Below, piece after piece: positions 3,272 to 42,372 of a DNA stretch of 42,372 bases. The DNA comes from Candidatus Caenarcanales bacterium. GTDB taxonomy: Bacteria; Cyanobacteriota; Vampirovibrionia; 2-02-FULL-35-15. The stretch's first letter is position 1, and the number at the start of each line of letters is the position of its first letter. The DNA is taken from the NCBI GenBank assembly GCA_020050435.1, contig JAGVKQ010000026.1:1-42372 (forward strand), given 5' to 3'. Below the pieces are notes generated by a model that saw nothing but the letters and a program-made list of their open reading frames with translations, was not told where the DNA came from and did no database searches. The position numbers and the translations under genes are program-made.

Positions 3272-4234
3272 ATGAAAAGATTATTTACTTTATTTTTAGC
3301 CTTAGCACTTGTATTTAATTTATGTGAATTAAATGCTTTGTCAGCAGGAAGAGGGGTTTCAGGAGAATGGGTGCTTATAGAAGGATCAGAAGAAACAGGC
3401 TTTACTGGATTTAAAATTAAAAATAATAATAGTGGTGCTTTTGTTTTTACCAATGGAAGCAAGCATAAAATCACTTCTTTTGAACAATATAACAATGATT
3501 CAATAAATGGATTTCTAATAACCATAGATGGGCTTTCAGATTCATATGTTTTATCTCTGGAAAATAAAAATATAATTGGTTATCTGTTTGGGGTTGAATT
3601 AGAGAAGGTTTTTGTAGCTAGTAGAAGGGGAATTCAAAAAGCAAATTCACAAGGAAATCACCCAACTACATCTACATCCTCTTCAACAACTGGAGGTCCT
3701 TCATCAACGTCTGGCTTAAACGGCATTAACGGCATAAACGGAATTAACGGCATCAACGGGATTAATGGCATCAACGGAATTAATGGCATCAACGGAATTA
3801 ATGGCATCAACGGAATTAATGGCATCAACGGCATTAACGGAATTAACGGTATTAACGGCATCAACGGCATAAATGGCATCAACGGCATTAACGGCATAAA
3901 TGGCATTAACGGCATAAATGAAGAACCTAGACCATCGTTTACACCAATTCCTACTATTACACCAGCATCAACTCAGCCAATACCTACTTCAACTCCCACT
4001 GGATCTGTAGTAGGAGCTGCTGCCGGAGCAATAAGTAATGGGGTTATAAATGGAATACCTACACCTACTCCACCACCTGTTTTGCCTAGTAACATAGGTA
4101 GTCTAGGAACGACAACTACAACTGTGCCAGTAACAACTGTTACACCGACACCTACTCCATTCAATCCATGGACAGATCCAAATTATTTTGGAGGACCTTC
4201 ACCTACACCATTTAATCCCTTTGACACGATATAA
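3272..4234 (+). CDS. Secreted low-complexity protein with 22 Gly-Ile-Asn repeats
   Basis: The 320-residue protein has a clear signal peptide (residues 1-26). A globular N-terminal part of about 95 residues follows (VSGEWVLIEG ... GYLFGVELEKVF). Next come a Ser/Thr-rich spacer, a perfect GIN array at residues 151-216, and a long Pro/Thr-rich tail (PTPTP, TTTTTVPVTT) to the C-terminus. Glycine at every third position resembles the collagen Gly-X-Y rule, but Ile-Asn pairs and the absence of proline in the array make a collagen triple helix unlikely; a flat beta solenoid or fibre is another option. Pro/Thr tails are common in exported wall-spanning or glycosylated stalks. The likely role is a surface or extracellular structural protein, which is inference. 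I recognise no family. Confidence 0.8.
   Translation: MKRLFTLFLALALVFNLCELNALSAGRGVSGEWVLIEGSEETGFTGFKIKNNNSGAFVFTNGSKHKITSFEQYNNDSINGFLITIDGLSDSYVLSLENKNIIGYLFGVELEKVFVASRRGIQKANSQGNHPTTSTSSSTTGGPSSTSGLNGINGINGINGINGINGINGINGINGINGINGINGINGINGINGINGINGINGINGINGINGINGINEEPRPSFTPIPTITPASTQPIPTSTPTGSVVGAAAGAISNGVINGIPTPTPPPVLPSNIGSLGTTTTTVPVTTVTPTPTPFNPWTDPNYFGGPSPTPFNPFDTI
3713..3919 (+). repeat. 9-bp tandem array encoding GLN then 22 x GIN
   Basis: One GGCTTAAAC unit is followed by exactly 22 nine-base units (GGCATCAAC, GGAATTAAT, GGCATTAAC, GGCATAAAT and similar), all encoding Gly-Ile-Asn. Units vary only at synonymous positions, so the peptide is held constant while the DNA drifts. In the middle, GGCATCAAC and GGAATTAAT alternate as an 18-base higher-order unit, a trace of segmental expansion. 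Confidence 0.97.
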
Positions 4235-4264: not shown

Positions 4265-4296
4265 GTACAGACGCCCCAGCGGGGCGTCTCTCCTAC
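4265..4296. repeat. Short palindromic element (copy a)
   Basis: The stem AGACGCCCC / GGGGCGTCT (9 bp, loop AGC) is flanked by GTAC on the left and CTCTCCTAC on the right. It belongs to a family seen again at 9303, 19566, 23089 and 42339. Its right-hand GTAG, read on the minus strand, contains the TAG stop of the SIMPL gene. It may serve as a transcription terminator between the two converging genes, but no run of T follows it. Confidence 0.75.
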
Positions 4297-20026: not shown

Positions 20027-22069
20027 GTGAATTATCCATCTACAACTGGTAAAAAACTAATAGCTTTGGCAGGAAATCCCAATGTAGGGAAGTCTGTTTT
20101 TTTTAACTATTTAAGTAAAGTTTATGTAGATGTAAGCAATTATCCCGGGACTACAGTCGAAATAACCAGTGCCCCACTGGGAAATGAGAATGAAAACATT
20201 CTTATTCAGGATACTCCAGGGATTTATGGAGTAAGTAGTTTTAATGATGAAGAAAGAGTAGCCAGAGATATTATTCTTTATGCTGACATTGTGATTAACA
20301 TAGTTTCAGCCATAAGCTTAGATAGAGATTTATTTCTAACCAAACAATTAATTGATATGGGCAAACCAATGATTCTTGCTATAAATCAAATGGATGAAGC
20401 AAAGTCACTTGGATTAAATATTAATATAGAAAAGCTTTCAGAGCTTCTTGGCATTCCAGTTTTTTCAACCATTGCTATAACTGGTGAAGGAATGGAAGAA
20501 ATAAAAAATGCTATCTATCCTCTTTCAAGTTCTATTGAAAAAAAAGGGAAAGTAGACCCTATTCTTAAAAATGAACTCACAGAGATTCTCCCCTTGGTTT
20601 CAAATCAGGCTGAAGCGCTTTTATTACTAGAAGGTGACTTAGTAATAGCAGAAAGACATAACATTGAACCAAGAAATAAAAGAAGTGAGCTTTATAGTCA
20701 AAGAAGAAAAGAAGTAAATGATCTTATAGAAGAAGTTACCTTATATAAAAACAAAAAAGAAAGATTTTTAACAAAAGTTTCAAATATACTTATTGACCCA
20801 CTTTGGGGAGGGATAGTTGCAATTTTTATTGCTTACCTATTTTTATATCAATTGCTTGGGGTCTGGGTTGGAAGTAATTTAATAGAAGTTACAGAAGGTA
20901 AAATAATGAATGTCTATTATGAGCCTTTCGTAAGAGAAAACACTTCTCAGATTTTCCCCGTAGAGATAAGAAGAGGTTATAAGATTTTTGTTTTTCAAAA
21001 TGGTTTTCTGAAAGATAAAGAACAATATAAAACATTAGTTGAAGACAGAGAAGTAAATAAAAGCATAAAAGATGAGTATTTTTTTGGACCTAGTGATTAC
21101 ATAGAAAACACAAAGTCAGCCCCTACAAAATTAACGAATAATCTCTATAGCGCTACTGGCACTATTTTATCTGGGAAATATGGCATCTTAACATTGACAG
21201 TAACTTATTTACTTGGGCTTTTATTTCCATTAGTTCTTGCTTTTTATATGGCTTTGGCAGTCCTTGAAGATAGCGGATATTTACCCAGACTGGCAGTTTT
21301 AATTGATGGTCTTTTATCCAGAATTGGAATGAATGGCAGGGCAATTATTCCATTAATTTTAGGTCTTGGCTGTGTAACTATGGCATCAGTCACCACTAGA
21401 CTTTTATCGACAAAAAGAGAAAAAATAATAGCCATGACTATTTTAGGTTTTGCTATTCCTTGTTCAGCTCAACTTGGTGTAATTCAAACACTGCTTGCTA
21501 AATCTGGCGGCTTATCTTCATGGCTTATCTGGCTTTCAGTAATTGGAAGTGTTTTAGTTTTAACTGGCTATGTAATGAATAAATATTTACCTGGAAAGGT
21601 CACTCCACTACTTATTGATTTACCACCACTTAGAATACCCAGATTAAAAAACATCTATTATAAAACTAAAACAAAAGTAATGTTTTTTATGACTGAAGCA
21701 GTTGGGGCATTTTTCTTTGCAGCATTTATAGTAGGCTGTATGCAGGTAACTGGCTTACTCCAAAAAGTTATTAAAATCTTTGAACCAATTGTTATGGACC
21801 TTTTACACCTCCCTAAAGAAGTCTCAATTTCATTTATTCTAGGTATGGTTAGAAGAGATTTTGGAGCTTTTGGGTTGACTGAATTAGCAATGACACCTGC
21901 TCAAGTAACAGTAGCCAGCGTAGTCTTAACCTTATTTGTCCCATGCATAGCCACAGTATCAGTCATGGCTAAAGAACAGAGCTGGAAAGTAGCAGCGGGA
22001 ATATGGATTAGCTCAATCGTTCTTGCTGTCAGCATAGGATCAGTTTTAGCTATAATATTAAGTGCATAA
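20027..22069 (+). CDS. feoB: FeoB-type metal transporter, variant gate
   Basis: The 680-residue protein has an N-terminal G domain (G1 GNPNVGKS at 16-23, G3 DTPG at 62-65, G4 NQMD at 120-123), a helical linker, and a membrane domain from about 260 on with two gate repeats. FeoB imports Fe(II) across the inner membrane. Here the gates read GLGCVTMAS and IPCSAQLGVI instead of the usual GCNVP and CGAR, which marks a separate FeoB branch whose metal may differ. Residues about 283-385, between the first two membrane helices, form an extra-cytoplasmic insert far longer than in E. coli. No feoA is nearby. The start is GTG 20027 without a ribosome site; CATAAT at 20015-20020 could start a leaderless transcript there. 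Confidence 0.9.
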   Translation: MNYPSTTGKKLIALAGNPNVGKSVFFNYLSKVYVDVSNYPGTTVEITSAPLGNENENILIQDTPGIYGVSSFNDEERVARDIILYADIVINIVSAISLDRDLFLTKQLIDMGKPMILAINQMDEAKSLGLNINIEKLSELLGIPVFSTIAITGEGMEEIKNAIYPLSSSIEKKGKVDPILKNELTEILPLVSNQAEALLLLEGDLVIAERHNIEPRNKRSELYSQRRKEVNDLIEEVTLYKNKKERFLTKVSNILIDPLWGGIVAIFIAYLFLYQLLGVWVGSNLIEVTEGKIMNVYYEPFVRENTSQIFPVEIRRGYKIFVFQNGFLKDKEQYKTLVEDREVNKSIKDEYFFGPSDYIENTKSAPTKLTNNLYSATGTILSGKYGILTLTVTYLLGLLFPLVLAFYMALAVLEDSGYLPRLAVLIDGLLSRIGMNGRAIIPLILGLGCVTMASVTTRLLSTKREKIIAMTILGFAIPCSAQLGVIQTLLAKSGGLSSWLIWLSVIGSVLVLTGYVMNKYLPGKVTPLLIDLPPLRIPRLKNIYYKTKTKVMFFMTEAVGAFFFAAFIVGCMQVTGLLQKVIKIFEPIVMDLLHLPKEVSISFILGMVRRDFGAFGLTELAMTPAQVTVASVVLTLFVPCIATVSVMAKEQSWKVAAGIWISSIVLAVSIGSVLAIILSA

Positions 22070-23081: not shown

Positions 23082-23109
23082 AAAAAAAAGAGACGCAAGG
23101 TGCGTCTCT
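23082..23109 (-). terminator. Terminator of SLH gene / palindromic element (copy c)
   Basis: AGAGACGCA, loop AGG, TGCGTCTCT form a perfect 9-bp stem (23089-23109). On the minus strand the stem is followed by eight T, the classic rho-independent layout, 25 bases after the SLH gene stop. The arm GCGTCTCTA matches palindrome copies a and e. The T-run ends five bases before the ATG of the phosphoesterase gene. Confidence 0.8.
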
Positions 23110-31608: not shown

Positions 31609-32772
31609 ATGACAGCAATAAATCCAACAAATTCAATAAGTCCAAATTACGGATACAGTGAAGTGTCTCCTTTTGATGATTATAAAGATCTAAAAAAAGG
31701 AGATAAGACTTTTTCTGGTTACAACCATTCTACAGAGAGTAAAAAATGGGCAGAAGACACAAGCATAAATGCAGATAGAAGTGTTTGGTCTCATATAGTA
31801 GAGCTCCCGTTAAAGATTGCATCATATTTTATATTACAATCAGATTTTAAAGATTCCCCTTGGTCAACATTTTTTTTCACTGCAAAAGATTTAGCAGGAA
31901 ACATGGGAGATATGTTTAGGAATCAGATTTACTCTCACAAAAATACCAAAGGAGAATATGACGACAACGTAGGTGCAGAGCTATTTGCTGATGGGAAAAG
32001 CAATCCTGACAGCGGTTTCACACTACCCACGATAAATAACTTTGTACAGACCAAACTTAAATATCTTCTTATCCCTCTAAGCCTAGTAAATTATGAGCTT
32101 GCAAATGATATAGAATGGGCAGGCGTAAAATCACTAGATGCATGCTGGTGGAGAAAAATGAGCATAGACAGGGCATTTGGTAATGGCTTCTGGAATAAGC
32201 TTTACAACAGAATGTTTAAATCAGATTCAGAACCCACAGAAAATCAGCTCACGTGGAAATCTGTTCAGGAAAGCTTTTCCTCTCACGTAAGCAATGCAAA
32301 GAAAGCATGGAATAATGAAAACACCACAGAATTTTGTGACCATTTTGACAGAGCAATTTCAATTTTTACGCCTATCATTCAATGCTTAAACGTAGCTGGT
32401 GACATAGGCAGACCACTAGCAAGAAGGCTTGGAATAGAAGGAACCCCAAGAAATATAATCAGAGTTTTAAGTGCAATAGACAGACCATTGATTTGGGCAA
32501 ATAATCTTCTTAGATATTATTTCCCAGAAGTATTAAATAAAAAAGACAGCCATGCACCAACTTCCATTGCTGATGCGCCACACACCCTACTTGCAGCAAC
32601 CGTTGGAGATATGGTTGATTTCAGCGCATTAATTATGGAAGACAGAATTAAAGAATCCAGTGGAATGATTAATCATTTTATTGAAATTGTAAGAAGATTT
32701 ACAACAAGTACAAATGATATGTACTTCGCAGCGAGAAGAAGAAGAGCACATAATGACAATCAGACTAGTTAA
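31609..32772 (+). CDS. Unknown 387-aa protein
   Basis: There is no signal peptide. The first 60 residues are polar and probably disordered. The rest is helical, with several moderately hydrophobic segments rich in Trp and aromatic residues (VWSHIVELPLKIASYFILQSDF, YLLIPLSLVNYEL, NIIRVLSAIDRPLIWANNLLRYYFPEVL) that could be membrane-associated amphipathic helices. The C-terminus is basic (AARRRRAHNDNQTS). I recognise no family. The gene ends by overlapping the rpoC2 stop by eight bases on the opposite strand. No clear ribosome site precedes the ATG, and the upstream gap is AT-rich. Confidence 0.7.
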   Translation: MTAINPTNSISPNYGYSEVSPFDDYKDLKKGDKTFSGYNHSTESKKWAEDTSINADRSVWSHIVELPLKIASYFILQSDFKDSPWSTFFFTAKDLAGNMGDMFRNQIYSHKNTKGEYDDNVGAELFADGKSNPDSGFTLPTINNFVQTKLKYLLIPLSLVNYELANDIEWAGVKSLDACWWRKMSIDRAFGNGFWNKLYNRMFKSDSEPTENQLTWKSVQESFSSHVSNAKKAWNNENTTEFCDHFDRAISIFTPIIQCLNVAGDIGRPLARRLGIEGTPRNIIRVLSAIDRPLIWANNLLRYYFPEVLNKKDSHAPTSIADAPHTLLAATVGDMVDFSALIMEDRIKESSGMINHFIEIVRRFTTSTNDMYFAARRRRAHNDNQTS

Positions 32773-35700
32773 GGCTCATTGATTGATCAAATGCTTTAAT
32801 ATCAATTTGCTCAACTTGTTTAATGTGAATATATCCAGTACCTGCGGGAATTAAACGTCCAATAATTACGTTTTCTTTAAGCCCTCTCAACCAGTCTTTT
32901 TTACCTTGAACTGCTGCTTCTGACAGGATTCTAGTAGTTTCTTGGAAACTTGCAGCTGATATAAAGCTTTCAGTATTCAAGCTAGCTTTTGTAATACCAA
33001 GAAGAACAGACTTATATGCAGGAGGCTTAGCATCTTTGTTTATAAGTTTTCTTGCTTTTTCTGTCTCTTCAATAATGTCTCTCATTTCAACAAGCTCACC
33101 AGGAAGAAGAATGGTATCACCAGCATCTTCAATTCTCATCTTCTTAGTCATTTGTCTAATAATAACTTCAATATGTTTATCAGAGATTTCCACACCTTGA
33201 CTTCTGTATACTTTTTGAACTTCATCAAGCAAGTATTGTTGAACTGCTGCTACACCAAGAAGTGCAAGTATGTCATGAGGATTTGCTGGTCCATCTGTTA
33301 AAGGCTGACCAATTTTAACTTCTTGACCATCATCAACAATAATGTTTAAACCTGAAGGAATAGACACTTCTTGTTGAACATCACCTGAGACTAATATAAG
33401 TCTTATTGCTTCTTCTTCTTCTACAATTTTAATCTTGGCATCCAATTCTGAAAGGATAGAAGATTCACGAGGCTTACGACCTTCAAGCAATTCTTCTACT
33501 CTAGGAAGACCTTGAACGATATCTGCCGTCTTAACTCTCTCATAGATAAGAGATGCAAGCTGATCTCCTCTTTGTACTAAATGTCCTTGATCACACTGAA
33601 GAAGTGCACCCATACTTACTAAGTATGGTCTACCTTTTCTTATAACAACTGATTTAGCATCTGCAGTAAGTATCTGACCTGAACAAGCAGATTCAGTCTG
33701 ACCGCCCACTTTTTGACCAAACTTAACAAAGTCACTAACTTTTGCTGTTGGTTTTGCTGTGGTTTCTTGTTTAATCAAATCATTTCCAGTAATAAGAAGT
33801 AGTCTTTTTTCTTCTTGTGTACTTAAGCTAACCATTCCATTTGTACGTGCAAGCACTTGGGTTTTAGCAATAGCTACTCCAGGGGCAATATGATCATGAT
33901 TATCAAGCAATAATTGAGTAACGTTTGTATCTTGTTCTCTTCTAAGAACAATATTTTCTTTAACTATTACTTGCAATTCTTGATTATCATCAGCATCTTT
34001 TGTAATTTCAACATTACCTTTTAATGTAACTAAATCACCAGTCATTGTTAAAACTAAGCTGGTCTTCGATAAAGCTCCACCATTAAAGTTTCTAACTCTT
34101 TCTCCATCTCTAAATAACATTTGAGTTACTGCAACAAGTGCAATATTTGGATCAGTTGAATAACCTTGGAAATTTACTTTCTTAGGTTCAATTGGGAATA
34201 TCATTACCGGTCTTAGAAGTAATTTAACTGTTCCTTTTTCTTCATTTTCAATAAGAGTAATTACTTTAGGAGCATCAGTAGTAATACCAGGATAAACTTC
34301 CACACCTTCAGCGACAAGCTCACCATTTTCATGTTTAAGCAATGCTGGCTCTGGGATTTCATGGAGTTCGCCAGGTTTAACTGTTACTTCATGGATAATA
34401 TCATTATCTACTTTTAACTGAACGATACCATCTAAGTGAGTAAAAACTTCTTTTACAATTTCTTGTCCAGCTTTTACAGTATCTTCATTTTCAACAAGTT
34501 TTAAACCAACATCTTTACTTAGGTAATGAACTTCTTCAGGAATAAATACTACTTTTCCTGTTTGAGTAATAATTCTTGAATCATCTACTTCTAATCCTTG
34601 ATATCTAATTTCACCTGATGTTGTAACAGCTAAAACTCCATCATCAATAATTTCAGCAATTACACTCTTATTTTCAAGTGTTTCATTAGGAACAACTTTA
34701 ATAGTCCAATTTTCTTCTGGATTTGTTTTTGTACCTTTAATTTTCCATGAATTGCCTTGTTTTATAGTTTCAAACTTAGCATTTTCTGCACCAACTCTTG
34801 CAATTACAATGCTAACTTCTCTACCCTGAACTAGTCTCTTAATTTTCTCTTTTCCAACTTTAACTTCTTCTATTACTAAGTCATCATTAAATCTAACTTC
34901 ACCACCACGCTCTGAAATGATTAATGATTCAGCAAGAACATCTTCTTTCTCAGCTTGTTCGCCATCTTTAACAGTAAGTCTGCTACCTGCAGGAAGATTA
35001 TAAACATCACCTTCTAGTACCCAGATCGTACCACTCTTATTTGCTGTTCTTGAAATATTTCCTTGACGATCTCTCTTTTCATCAGCTGCAAAACCATCAA
35101 AAACAACTTGTCCTGGATGATCAGAAATAATATCTTTTGTAGCCTTTTCAATTTGACCACTTTGATCACTATCAATATATTCTGCAATCACGCCACCCTT
35201 TTCAACATCGGTGCCGCTTTGATAAATAATTTGTGAACCAATTGGAAGAAATACTTCCTTACTACCAATTTTAATTTTTCCTTCTTTTATGGTTTGATAA
35301 ACTTGGTCACCATATTTAGTTCTGGATTCTTTAGTAGGAATATCATACTTAAGAGTGCCTGATTCTGGAGTTGTAATAAGTCTTCTAATACCCATACCAG
35401 ACACAACACCGCCTGTATGGAAAGTTCTCATGGTTAACTGTGTACCTGGCTCACCAATTGACTGAGCAGCAATAATACCAATAGCCTCACCCATATCAAC
35501 CATAGTGTTTGTAGCCAAACTCCAGCCATAACATACCTGACAAATACCATAAGGCATTTCACAAGCAAGAGGAGTTCTAACCTTTACGGTGTTTACATTT
35601 GAGGTTTCAATTAATTTAGCTTTTACACGATCAATTACTTCACCCTTTTTAATTATTATTTGTTTAGTACTAGTTTCAATAATATCTTCAGAAGCAATTC

Positions 35701-36448
35701 TTCCTACAATTCTGTCTCCAACACTAAGAGTTAACTTCTCACCTTCATAAAGTGAATGAACAAAAATGCCTTTAGTAGTACCACAATCATGTTCACGAAT
35801 AGTTACGTCTTGTGCAACGTCTACAAGTCTTCTAGTTAAATAACCAGAATCTGCTGTTTTAAGTGCTGTATCTACGATACCTTTTCTTGCACCATAACTT
35901 GAAATAATATACTCAGTAACATTCAAGCCTTCTTTAAAGTTTGTCTTAATAGGCAAATCGATAATTTGACCTTGAGAATCTGCCATCAAGCCTCTCATCC
36001 CTACAAGCTGACGAACTTGACTTAAATTACCTCTTGCACCAGAGAATGCCATCATATAAACAGGATTTAATTTGTTGAAATTTTCAACAACTCTTGCAGT
36101 TAGTTTTGCTGTGGTTTCAGACCAGGTATCAATAACTTTATTATATCTTTCAACTTCAGTTATATCACCTTTTTCATATCTTTTTTGAGCTTCTTCGATT
36201 TGTTTTTCTGCTGCTGTAATAAGTTCTTTTTTATCAGGAGGAATAGTCAAATCTTCAATACTAATAGTGACTCCAGCTTTAGTAGCAAAGTGAAAACCAA
36301 GATTTTTTAAAGAGTTAGCAACTTCACTGGTTACAGCTGCACCATACTTTTCATAAACATCTAGAATTAACCTAGACAATCTTTTCTTGTCTACATTTTC
36401 ATTTATGAAAGCTATTTTTTCTTTTTTATTCTTAGTTGTCTGAATCAT
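32765..36448 (-). CDS. rpoC2: RNA polymerase subunit beta' C-terminal part (RpoC2)
   Basis: The 1227-residue protein corresponds to the C-terminal half of bacterial beta'. A zinc site is formed by Cys222, Cys296, Cys303 and Cys306. The bridge helix/trigger loop start GEPGTQLTMRTFHTGG is at about 334-347, and the conserved end PRVEELLEGRKPRE begins at about 980 and runs to GRLIPAGTGY. Between these lie about 630 residues of repeated small beta domains, the large SI3 insertion typical of cyanobacteria and much larger than in E. coli. AAAGGAG precedes ATG 36448. It is the last gene of the rpoB operon, 36 bases after rpoC1, and its stop overlaps the converging unknown gene. Confidence 0.97.
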   Translation of the reverse strand: MIQTTKNKKEKIAFINENVDKKRLSRLILDVYEKYGAAVTSEVANSLKNLGFHFATKAGVTISIEDLTIPPDKKELITAAEKQIEEAQKRYEKGDITEVERYNKVIDTWSETTAKLTARVVENFNKLNPVYMMAFSGARGNLSQVRQLVGMRGLMADSQGQIIDLPIKTNFKEGLNVTEYIISSYGARKGIVDTALKTADSGYLTRRLVDVAQDVTIREHDCGTTKGIFVHSLYEGEKLTLSVGDRIVGRIASEDIIETSTKQIIIKKGEVIDRVKAKLIETSNVNTVKVRTPLACEMPYGICQVCYGWSLATNTMVDMGEAIGIIAAQSIGEPGTQLTMRTFHTGGVVSGMGIRRLITTPESGTLKYDIPTKESRTKYGDQVYQTIKEGKIKIGSKEVFLPIGSQIIYQSGTDVEKGGVIAEYIDSDQSGQIEKATKDIISDHPGQVVFDGFAADEKRDRQGNISRTANKSGTIWVLEGDVYNLPAGSRLTVKDGEQAEKEDVLAESLIISERGGEVRFNDDLVIEEVKVGKEKIKRLVQGREVSIVIARVGAENAKFETIKQGNSWKIKGTKTNPEENWTIKVVPNETLENKSVIAEIIDDGVLAVTTSGEIRYQGLEVDDSRIITQTGKVVFIPEEVHYLSKDVGLKLVENEDTVKAGQEIVKEVFTHLDGIVQLKVDNDIIHEVTVKPGELHEIPEPALLKHENGELVAEGVEVYPGITTDAPKVITLIENEEKGTVKLLLRPVMIFPIEPKKVNFQGYSTDPNIALVAVTQMLFRDGERVRNFNGGALSKTSLVLTMTGDLVTLKGNVEITKDADDNQELQVIVKENIVLRREQDTNVTQLLLDNHDHIAPGVAIAKTQVLARTNGMVSLSTQEEKRLLLITGNDLIKQETTAKPTAKVSDFVKFGQKVGGQTESACSGQILTADAKSVVIRKGRPYLVSMGALLQCDQGHLVQRGDQLASLIYERVKTADIVQGLPRVEELLEGRKPRESSILSELDAKIKIVEEEEAIRLILVSGDVQQEVSIPSGLNIIVDDGQEVKIGQPLTDGPANPHDILALLGVAAVQQYLLDEVQKVYRSQGVEISDKHIEVIIRQMTKKMRIEDAGDTILLPGELVEMRDIIEETEKARKLINKDAKPPAYKSVLLGITKASLNTESFISAASFQETTRILSEAAVQGKKDWLRGLKENVIIGRLIPAGTGYIHIKQVEQIDIKAFDQSMSLN

Positions 36449-36484
36449 TGTTTTAACTTAACTCCTTTGAAACCCATATATAAA

Positions 36485-38326
36485 CTAACCAGTAATATCT
36501 TTAATTGTTTCATTGAAAATAATTCGACCTACAGTCGTATTAATTCTCTTTCCATCTTCATCACGAACATTGATTTTTGCATGGAGATGAAGTATGTTCG
36601 CTTCATAAGCTGCTCTTGCATCATTGAAGCTATAGAAATTCATTCCAGAACCTTTGCAAGTTGCAGATTCTTCTGGATCTGGTCTTTCTACTGTTAGATA
36701 GTAAATCCCAAGAATCATATCTTGTGTAGGTGTAACTGTTGGCTTACCACTAGCAGGTAAAAGAATATTATTACTTGCAAGCATTAACATTCTTGCTTCT
36801 GCTTGAGCTTCAACTGATAATGGAATATGAACAGCCATTTGGTCACCGTCAAAGTCTGCGTTAAATGCTGCGCAAACAAGAGGGTGTAACTGTATCGCTC
36901 TTCCATCTACAAGTACTGGTTCAAAAGCTTGAATACCTAATCTATGTAGAGTTGGTGCACGATTTAATAAAACGGGATGTCCTAGAACTACTTGGTCTAA
37001 TATTTCCCAGACAATAGGAGTTCCTTTTTCAATTTGCTTTTTAGCAGATTTAATGTTTTGGCAGATTTGACGCTCAATAAGTTTATTAATAACAAATGGT
37101 TTGAATAACTCAATAGCCATTTCTCTTGGTAAACCACATTCATGAACTTTCAATCTAGGACCAACAACAATAACTGATCTTCCTGAGTAGTCAACACGCT
37201 TACCAAGTAAGTTTTGTCTAAATCTACCTTGCTTACCTTCAATAATATTTGAAAGTGATTTAAGAGGTCTTCCATTTGATCCAGTAACAACTCTTCCTCT
37301 TCTACCATTATCAATAAGAGCATCTACTGCTTCTTGAAGCATTCTTTTTTCATTTCTTACAATGATTTCAGGTGCTCCCATATCTAAAAGTCTAGCTAAA
37401 CGATTATTTCTGTTTATTACTCTTCTATATAAATCGTTTAAGTCACTGGTAGCAAATCTTCCACCATCTAACTGAACCATTGGTCTTAAGTCTGGAGGAG
37501 TAATAGGAAGAACATCTAATACCATCCATGTTGGATCAGTATTTGAGCCTATTAAACTTTCAAGGAGTCTCAATCGTTTAATTATTTTTGCTCTTCTTTG
37601 TTGGCTTCCGCTAGCGGTCGCTAACTCTGCTCTTAATTTAATAGCTAACTCTTCAAGTCCTGGAAGTGCTTTTAACTCACCACGCTCATCACGTGTTTTA
37701 GCATCAGGGAATTCATAAACTGGTTTAGCAATTTCTTCAAGAATTAATCTGAGAGATTCTGCACCAATTGCAACTTCAAACTGAGCATTTTCATCTTGAG
37801 CTAAAACTTCATACTCTTCTTCTGTTAAGAGCTGACTTTTAGTAATAGTCTCAACATTGCCAGGATTCAATACAACATATTGATTGAAATAAATAACTTG
37901 TTCAAGATCTCTCAAAGGAATATCAGTAAGCAAACTTAAATAGCTAGGAATTCCTTTTAAAAACCAAATATGACAAACTGGAGCGGCTAACTTAATATGC
38001 CCCATTCTATGTCTTCTTACTTTTGATTCTGTAACTTCTACGCCACATCTTTCACAAATAATACCTTTGTGTCTTACTCTCTTATATTTTCCGCAATAAC
38101 ATTCCCAGTCCTTAGTAGGTCCAAATATTCTTTCACAAAAGAGACCATCTTTTTCAGGTTTCAATGTTCTGTAGTTTATGGTTTCAGGTTTTGTAACCTC
38201 ACCAAAAGACCAACCCATTATTCTTCCTGGGGAAGCAATCTTTATCTGAAGATGATTAAAACGATCAAATATTGATATGCTTGGGAAGTTACCATTTGAT
38301 TTAAAAAGACTTTCTTGAACTGCCAC
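36485..38326 (-). CDS. rpoC1: RNA polymerase subunit gamma / beta' N-terminal part (RpoC1)
   Basis: The 613-residue protein is the N-terminal half of beta'. The zinc cysteines are 76, 78, 91 and 94 ([19 protein letters not shown]), and the catalytic NADFDGD motif binding the active-site magnesium is at 489-495. Clamp and rudder sequences ([27 protein letters not shown]) lie between. It starts at GTG behind GGAAGGG. Its length and end point equal cyanobacterial RpoC1. A true split, not a sequencing error, is supported by the separate ribosome site of rpoC2. Confidence 0.97.
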
Positions 38327-41858: not shown

Positions 41859-42218
41859 TTACTACCTCAATATACTTTTATAAACCAAAATTTTCTTCTT
41901 TGATAAAAAACAAGAAACAGAGGTTAAATTATATTGAGTTCTTAACCAAAAAGTCAACGTGTATTTAAGATTAAATTGTACATCTATAACAATTTAAATA
42001 TGTATGTGCTGTATTTTAGATCTTGTATTGATTTTTAATCCCCAGACTTTGAGCCTGATTGGTATATAGGATATATCTCATATTATGTTTTGTCAAGTAA
42101 TTGATAATTAAGAATACTAACTTTTTTATAGAAGATGACGTGTTAAAGAGAATATGGGATTGTCATGACAAGGATCTACATTGCATAACGATTAATATTT
42201 TATGATGCGAAACAATTT
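41859..42218. other. 360-bp rpoB upstream region
   Basis: It contains the rpoB promoter in its left part. I see no ORF, hairpin or operator in the remaining AT-rich 260 bases up to tRNA-Leu. Confidence 0.5.
41928..41957 (-). promoter_or_regulatory. Strong sigma-70 type promoter of the rpoB operon
   Basis: On the minus strand TTGACT (41957-41952) and TATAAT (41933-41928) are separated by 18 bases. The start would be near 41921, giving a leader of about 60 nt. Confidence 0.75.
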
Positions 42219-42300
42219 GCCGGTGAAGGGACTTGAACCCCCAAGGGCTTGCGCCCGGCTGATTTTGAGTCAGCTACGTTTGCCATTTCGTCACACCGGC
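42219..42300 (-). tRNA. tRNA-Leu (anticodon CAA)
   Basis: The 82-nt gene has acceptor arms GCCGGTG / CACCGGC, an anticodon arm GCTGA-CTCAAAA-TCAGC giving CAA for the TTG codon, a long class II variable arm (CGGGCGCAAGCCC) and T-loop TTCAAGT. CCA is not encoded. It has no intron. A partial second copy lies 19 bases upstream. Confidence 0.96.
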
Positions 42301-42319
42301 ATTAAATTTATTTTTCAGA

Positions 42320-42372
42320 TTGCGCCCGGCTGATTTAGAGACATGCCATGGCATGTCTGTACTACGTTTGCC
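42320..42372 (-). pseudogene. Partial tRNA-Leu copy with a palindrome in the anticodon arm
   Basis: GGCAAACGTAG (42372-42362) and AAATCAGCCGGGCGCAA (42336-42320) match the D-arm side and the anticodon/variable-arm part of the intact tRNA-Leu. Between them the eight bases CTGACTCA, including the anticodon, are replaced by 25 bases containing the palindrome. The 3' third of the tRNA is missing. The window edge cuts the 5' part, so it is unknown whether the acceptor strand is present. It cannot form the anticodon stem and should not work as a tRNA. Confidence 0.75.
42339..42358. repeat. Short palindromic element (copy d)
   Basis: AGACATGCCATGGCATGTCT is a perfect 20-base palindrome. Its flanks, TAGAG on the left and GTACTAC on the right, match the flanks of copy a read on the opposite strand. 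Confidence 0.85.

Follow-up and report, generated by a model that had tools for sequence, protein, structure and literature searches.

In vitro, RAYT transposases cleave and ligate oligonucleotides of REP sequence. For RAYTs other than those described below, cleavage on single-stranded DNA, at a CT dinucleotide beside the tetranucleotide GTAG and a hairpin, has been published. Clean footprints of REP insertion at new sites are rare.

The closest described elements are the double-foot REPs of TnpA-REP (RAYT) subclass 2.4 (Quentin et al. 2018, PMC6006769). These are short (20–40 bp) stem-loop palindromes with a 5' foot GT[AG]G and a 3' foot C[TC]AC, in which a GTAG end, a complementary CTAC end and a long stem recur as in the family described here. 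In tnpA-REP genes of this subclass they are found as in-frame insertions between the HuH and Y motifs, and the subclass ranges over many phyla, Cyanobacteria included. GTAG-tagged REPs (Di Nocera et al. 2013, PMC3733652) are also palindromes of 20–40 bp with a GTAG tag and a link to RAYTs, and some lie within genes, including uvrABC and tRNA-modification genes; however, their tag is described as unpaired at one end, whereas here the tag belongs to the palindrome. Rickettsia palindromic elements (PMC2229807) occur in frame within protein genes, and two RNA genes, those for tmRNA and RNase P RNA, carry them too, but the classical forms have coding capacity, measure 105–146 bp and have no known RAYT. 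At 28 bp, the element studied here was rejected as a member of that group.

The locus lies at the end of contig C9, which in its entire length of 42,372 nucleotides is the window analysed, in a genome of 2.49 Mb and 30 contigs. Here a second, non-functional copy of tRNA-Leu(CAA), truncated at its 3' end, stands immediately before the 5' end of the intact gene, and a 28-bp palindrome of the form GTAGAGAC-core-GTCTCTAC occupies its anticodon arm. We consider it fairly probable that this palindrome is a double-foot REP of the RAYT subclass 2.4 type, placed there by a RAYT acting on single-stranded DNA. The element type, a transposase-linked REP, is known; what is unusual is the site, a tRNA copy, and an unusually clear footprint of entry. 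Compared with the described double-foot REPs, the element differs in its feet, GTAC...CTAA, and in its position inside a tRNA pseudo-copy. The word 'tRNA' is absent from the text of PMC6006769. None of the papers searched was found to describe a REP within a tRNA gene or copy, which does not prove absence, and a literature search with the letters of the palindrome returned only primers and unrelated text.

A palindrome replaces part of the anticodon arm in a tRNA-Leu copy

The intact tRNA-Leu(CAA) gene is encoded on the minus strand at 42217–42301 (ARAGORN; Rfam RF00005, 55 bits). The fragment begins at 42320, 18 bases upstream of the 5' end of the gene, beyond an AT-rich spacer of 18 nt (42302–42319, minus strand; TCTGAAAAATAAATTTAA in the sense of the tRNA). 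As the original prediction had claimed, the fragment matches the intact gene on both sides of the anticodon: 42320–42336 (TTGCGCCCGGCTGATTT; minus strand), comprising the start of the variable arm and the 3' side of the anticodon arm, is identical over all 17 bases, and 42362–42372 (CTACGTTTGCC; minus strand), from the 5' part, is also exact. Between them, 25 bases (42337–42361) stand in place of eight native bases that include the anticodon (CTGACTCA). The perfect palindrome ascribed to this insert was recovered as its inner 18 bases (GACATGCCATGGCATGTC), for which the chance expectation is 0.01 per window even with three mismatches allowed. The stem extends outward to 42336–42361 (26 bases) with a single mismatched pair (TAGAG.../...CTGTA). 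Palindrome and pattern scans place the whole REP-like element at 42335–42362; these 28 bp (GTACAGACATGCCATGGCATGTCTCTAA in the tRNA sense) carry two mismatches to GTAGAGACATGCCATGGCATGTCTCTAC and fall within the size and stem-loop form of double-foot REPs. The junction can be read as eight bases out and 25 in or, by the ends of the element, as 11 out and 28 in, and it shows no target duplication.

Introns of cyanobacterial tRNA-Leu genes, to which the insert had been linked because of its place in the anticodon arm, are group I introns of tRNA-Leu(UAA). The present insert shares with them only the anticodon arm of a tRNA-Leu. It lies in the CAA isoacceptor, is 25 bases long, has cost the arm eight bases, stands in a tRNA lacking its 3' half and has no match to an intron family in Rfam; splicing could not restore the tRNA, since the eight bases are missing. 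An intron-like insertion at the anticodon is thus refuted by the sequence and the Rfam result, and we assign it a negligible probability.

C9 ends inside the tRNA copy, which could point to an assembly artefact at the contig end. The last 82 bases of C9 are identical, end to end, to positions 21748–21829 of a second contig, C24 (21,829 bp). Read through C24, the 5' part of the tRNA, whose presence beyond 42372 had been left to be checked, is found up to the true 5' end. The copy therefore comprises 27 bases from the 5' end and 17 from the 3' side of the anticodon arm, 44 tRNA bases with no mismatch, and lacks the T-arm and the 3' acceptor strand. Written in the orientation of the tRNA, the locus is GCCGGTGTGACGAAATGGCAAACGTAG-TACAGACATGCCATGGCATGTCTCT-AAATCAGCCGGGCGCAA-TCTGAAAAATAAATTTAA-TGCCGG, the last being the intact gene. 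The tRNA match is thus longer than the 28 bases first seen, and the palindrome recurs across the genome; a match confined to those bases, or a palindrome found nowhere else, would have spoken against the original prediction. The join of C9 and C24 is supported by gene order. In relatives from the same family the order is eno, an htrA-like protease, a membrane protein (~235 residues), tRNA-Leu and rpoB, and here the first three lie at the end of C24 and tRNA-Leu and rpoB on C9. With the palindrome whole in both contigs, albeit of one and the same assembly, and the join backed by gene order, we hold an artefact to be very unlikely. Since the contigs break at the tRNA copy, there may be strain variation within the sample.

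C9 opens in a 15-bp tandem repeat (GGAGTTTGAACTACT; 1–90), the likely cause of the contig break at that end. Elsewhere in the window, an array of 9-bp tandem repeats (3676–3945) lies within an open reading frame (3272–4234), and rpoC (32765–38326) consists of two separate genes, as in Cyanobacteria and relatives, which is in keeping with a probable place of the genome in or near the Melainabacteria.

Partial tRNA copies are typical of att remnants, the traces left where a phage or island has integrated site-specifically at a tRNA, and the fragment had been proposed as a landing site or recombination target. Usual att remnants consist of the 3' part of the tRNA, whereas this fragment is the 5' half. 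Moreover, a mere 18 bp separate the two copies, no integrated element lies there, and the order eno, htrA-like protease, membrane protein, tRNA-Leu, rpoB is conserved around them. The att reading was rejected on these grounds as highly improbable, and a role as landing site or recombination target finds no support.

The palindrome is a member of a dispersed family carried by RAYT genes

Palindromes of the form GTAGAGAC(N12-13)GTCTCTAC are dispersed in many copies in the genome. The pattern TAGAGAC-N4/24-GTCTCTA has 12 perfect copies, always with a spacing of 12 or 13 bases, while a reversed control pattern has none in the same genome. A looser scan for AGAC-N12/17-GTCT yielded 159 sites; among the 50 listed, 24 have a self-complementary core, against an expectation of about 0.7% for random cores. 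Core classes include GTTG..CAAC, TTGC..GCAA, ATGC..GCAT and GCCCC..GGGGC. In a 442-kb sample of the genome sequence we counted 106 GC-rich palindromes (of which 26 had tag-like ends under a loose criterion) as compared to 40 in one shuffle, so that their density is an estimate from this sample and a single shuffle. Palindrome scans of the window itself found a further AGAC...GTCT-type element with a GCCCC core (4267–4291) and a shorter AGAGACGC...GCGTCTCT palindrome (23089–23109). Common flanks, claimed for the palindrome in the tRNA copy and a 'copy a', were confirmed for the family in the form of the GTAG...CTAC ends; for 'copy a' no counterpart could be identified. This consensus conforms to the feet of double-foot REPs, whereas the tRNA-copy palindrome reads GTAC...CTAA at the same places; it may have decayed, or its route of entry may have been a different one.

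Within a set of 60 genomes, the perfect-ended element was found in eight of 11 from the same family and, as a single match, in one of the other 49. None of the comparison genomes belongs to the same genus. The exact ATGCC form is also present in metagenome-assembled genomes of many phyla, e.g. Ignavibacteria, Wallbacteria, Desantisbacteria, Dadabacteria, Roizmanbacteria and Melainabacteria.

Several copies lie in frame in conserved genes, namely queA, uvrC, trpC, trpA (two), an aguA-like gene and an amidase gene. In queA, the genome under study (G000) and G009 carry different REPs at one site where the other relatives have none. The net gain there is 12–15 bases relative to genomes without the element, as far as it can be read at old coding sites, where lost bases are no longer legible; the tRNA copy is therefore not alone in having gained fewer bases, net, than the element contains. 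At a single site in uvrC the core class differs between genomes, with GTTGC in G000 and G007, AATTC in G001 and G005 and TATTGC in G006, and the length is nearly constant. One REP may have been replaced in place by another, or the site may be a hot spot. A further in-frame copy was observed on C24 (L011, 472–500), at the start of the htrA-like protease reading frame and ahead of its likely signal peptide.

RAYT-type Y1 transposase genes carry the palindrome as well, nearly all of them between the HUH motif and the Tyr region. It is present in six of the seven RAYT reading frames of the family found by a Y1_Tnp profile search, in one more RAYT of the same genome, which came from the random sample, and in RAYTs of further phyla, these last partly fetched for holding the element. 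A RAYT on C27 (L010; at 113 kb) of the same genome contains GTAGAGACATGCCTAGGCATGTCTCTAC in frame. Its core is of the ATGCC class, as is that of the tRNA insert. The motifs NHVH, WQ and YIxNNP match TnpA-REP subclass 2.4, as does the in-frame REP between HUH and Y. By sequence, the family thus fits the double-foot REP type of this subclass. The proposal that a small element had inserted at the anticodon arm is supported in that the palindrome is a copy of a dispersed, transposase-linked family.

Origin of the junction

The membrane-protein gene next to the tRNA copy encodes 118 amino acids (C24, L011 1571–1927) as compared to about 235 in seven relatives. The reading frame stops a few bases short of the tRNA copy, and the 3' half of the gene is gone; in a relative, the C-terminal part of the protein has a weak HisKA-like match. 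The fragment upstream of tRNA-Leu is absent from all relatives examined. A truncated gene and a tRNA copy meeting at one junction point to a local rearrangement in which the gene lost its 3' half and the tRNA its usual leader.

The REP would have been placed during or after the rearrangement that produced the tRNA copy. By analogy with published RAYTs, processing of single-stranded DNA with a cut at CT beside GTAG and a hairpin could have set it into the copy, where the insert would be tolerated, the function being provided by the intact gene.

The main rival to placement by a RAYT is a single replication-based rearrangement, in which a stalled fork took up synthesis on new templates, the tRNA gene and a REP from another site, and the upstream gene lost its 3' half. 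The palindrome would still be a REP, and no transposase would be needed at the site. A truncated neighbour, a partial tRNA copy and a palindrome coincide at one spot, and eight native bases are gone with no target duplication, which speaks for such an event. Yet the same palindromes stand at many sites with no other visible rearrangement, and cognate palindromes are carried by RAYT genes. We regard this template-switching event as possible but rather unlikely.

Under placement by a RAYT, the junction may also hint at what the transposase took as its target. A GTAG tetranucleotide abuts the anticodon stem of tRNA-Leu(CAA), and of no other among 36 tRNA genes examined in the genome; other members of the family have GCAG at this arm. 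The replaced native sequence, CTGACTCA, corresponds to the 5' strand and loop of the arm and contains two CT dinucleotides. As a REP is recognised as GTAG plus a hairpin, the arm resembles one. In single-stranded DNA it might have been mistaken by the transposase for a REP, and its 5' strand and loop exchanged for a real one. We think this doubtful; the position of GTAG beside the stem is a post hoc observation and counts as weak evidence. It does provide a target hypothesis, GTAG plus a hairpin. The intact gene, at a distance of 18 bp, supplies the exact native sequence, no mismatch occurs in the flanks and the length is under no coding constraint, so that the junction can be read directly.

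The fragment and the leader of the intact gene

Five relatives have TATAAT exactly eight bases before the tRNA. A by-eye alignment with them puts the 6-mer AAAAAT of the spacer at that place, probably a decayed remnant of the ancestral -10 promoter element. The fragment may now lie within the 5' leader of the tRNA transcript. One could go further and take it for a functional leader or regulatory RNA, transcribed from upstream, whose 5' end pairs with the 3' acceptor strand of the intact tRNA. The decayed appearance of the -10 beside the gene, the sequence TGCTAGAAT upstream of the fragment and a predicted pairing of GCCGGTG in the fragment with CACCGGC in the tRNA would be in keeping with such a role. 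But that pairing would more likely harm the tRNA, the relatives examined all lack the fragment, and a scan for sigma-70-type promoters at the fragment gave nothing above shuffled expectation. A functional leader is accordingly quite improbable. In an Rfam scan of the fragment, the gathering score was reached by intact tRNAs only.

Other decayed tRNA copies

Decayed tRNA copies are not rare in this setting. A truncated tRNA-Ser(CGA) copy without the 5' acceptor strand (L179, 600–668; contig C20) follows the intact gene at a distance of about 100 bp on the downstream side, and two palindromes lie in the interval. A decayed tRNA-Phe copy with no palindrome (L155, 1616–1682; contig C12) is found 40–110 bp upstream of its intact gene. 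The relative G010 has an independent second copy of tRNA-Leu(CAA), at about 340–430 of L050 (contig C61), some 110 bp downstream of its intact counterpart. Two of these four copies, the tRNA-Leu fragment and that of G010, hold an inserted palindrome, numbers too few for a claim. In G010 the insert, of roughly 32 bases, lies in the T-loop and contains palindromes (TCCGCCAGAGGCGGA...) different from the one in the tRNA copy described here.
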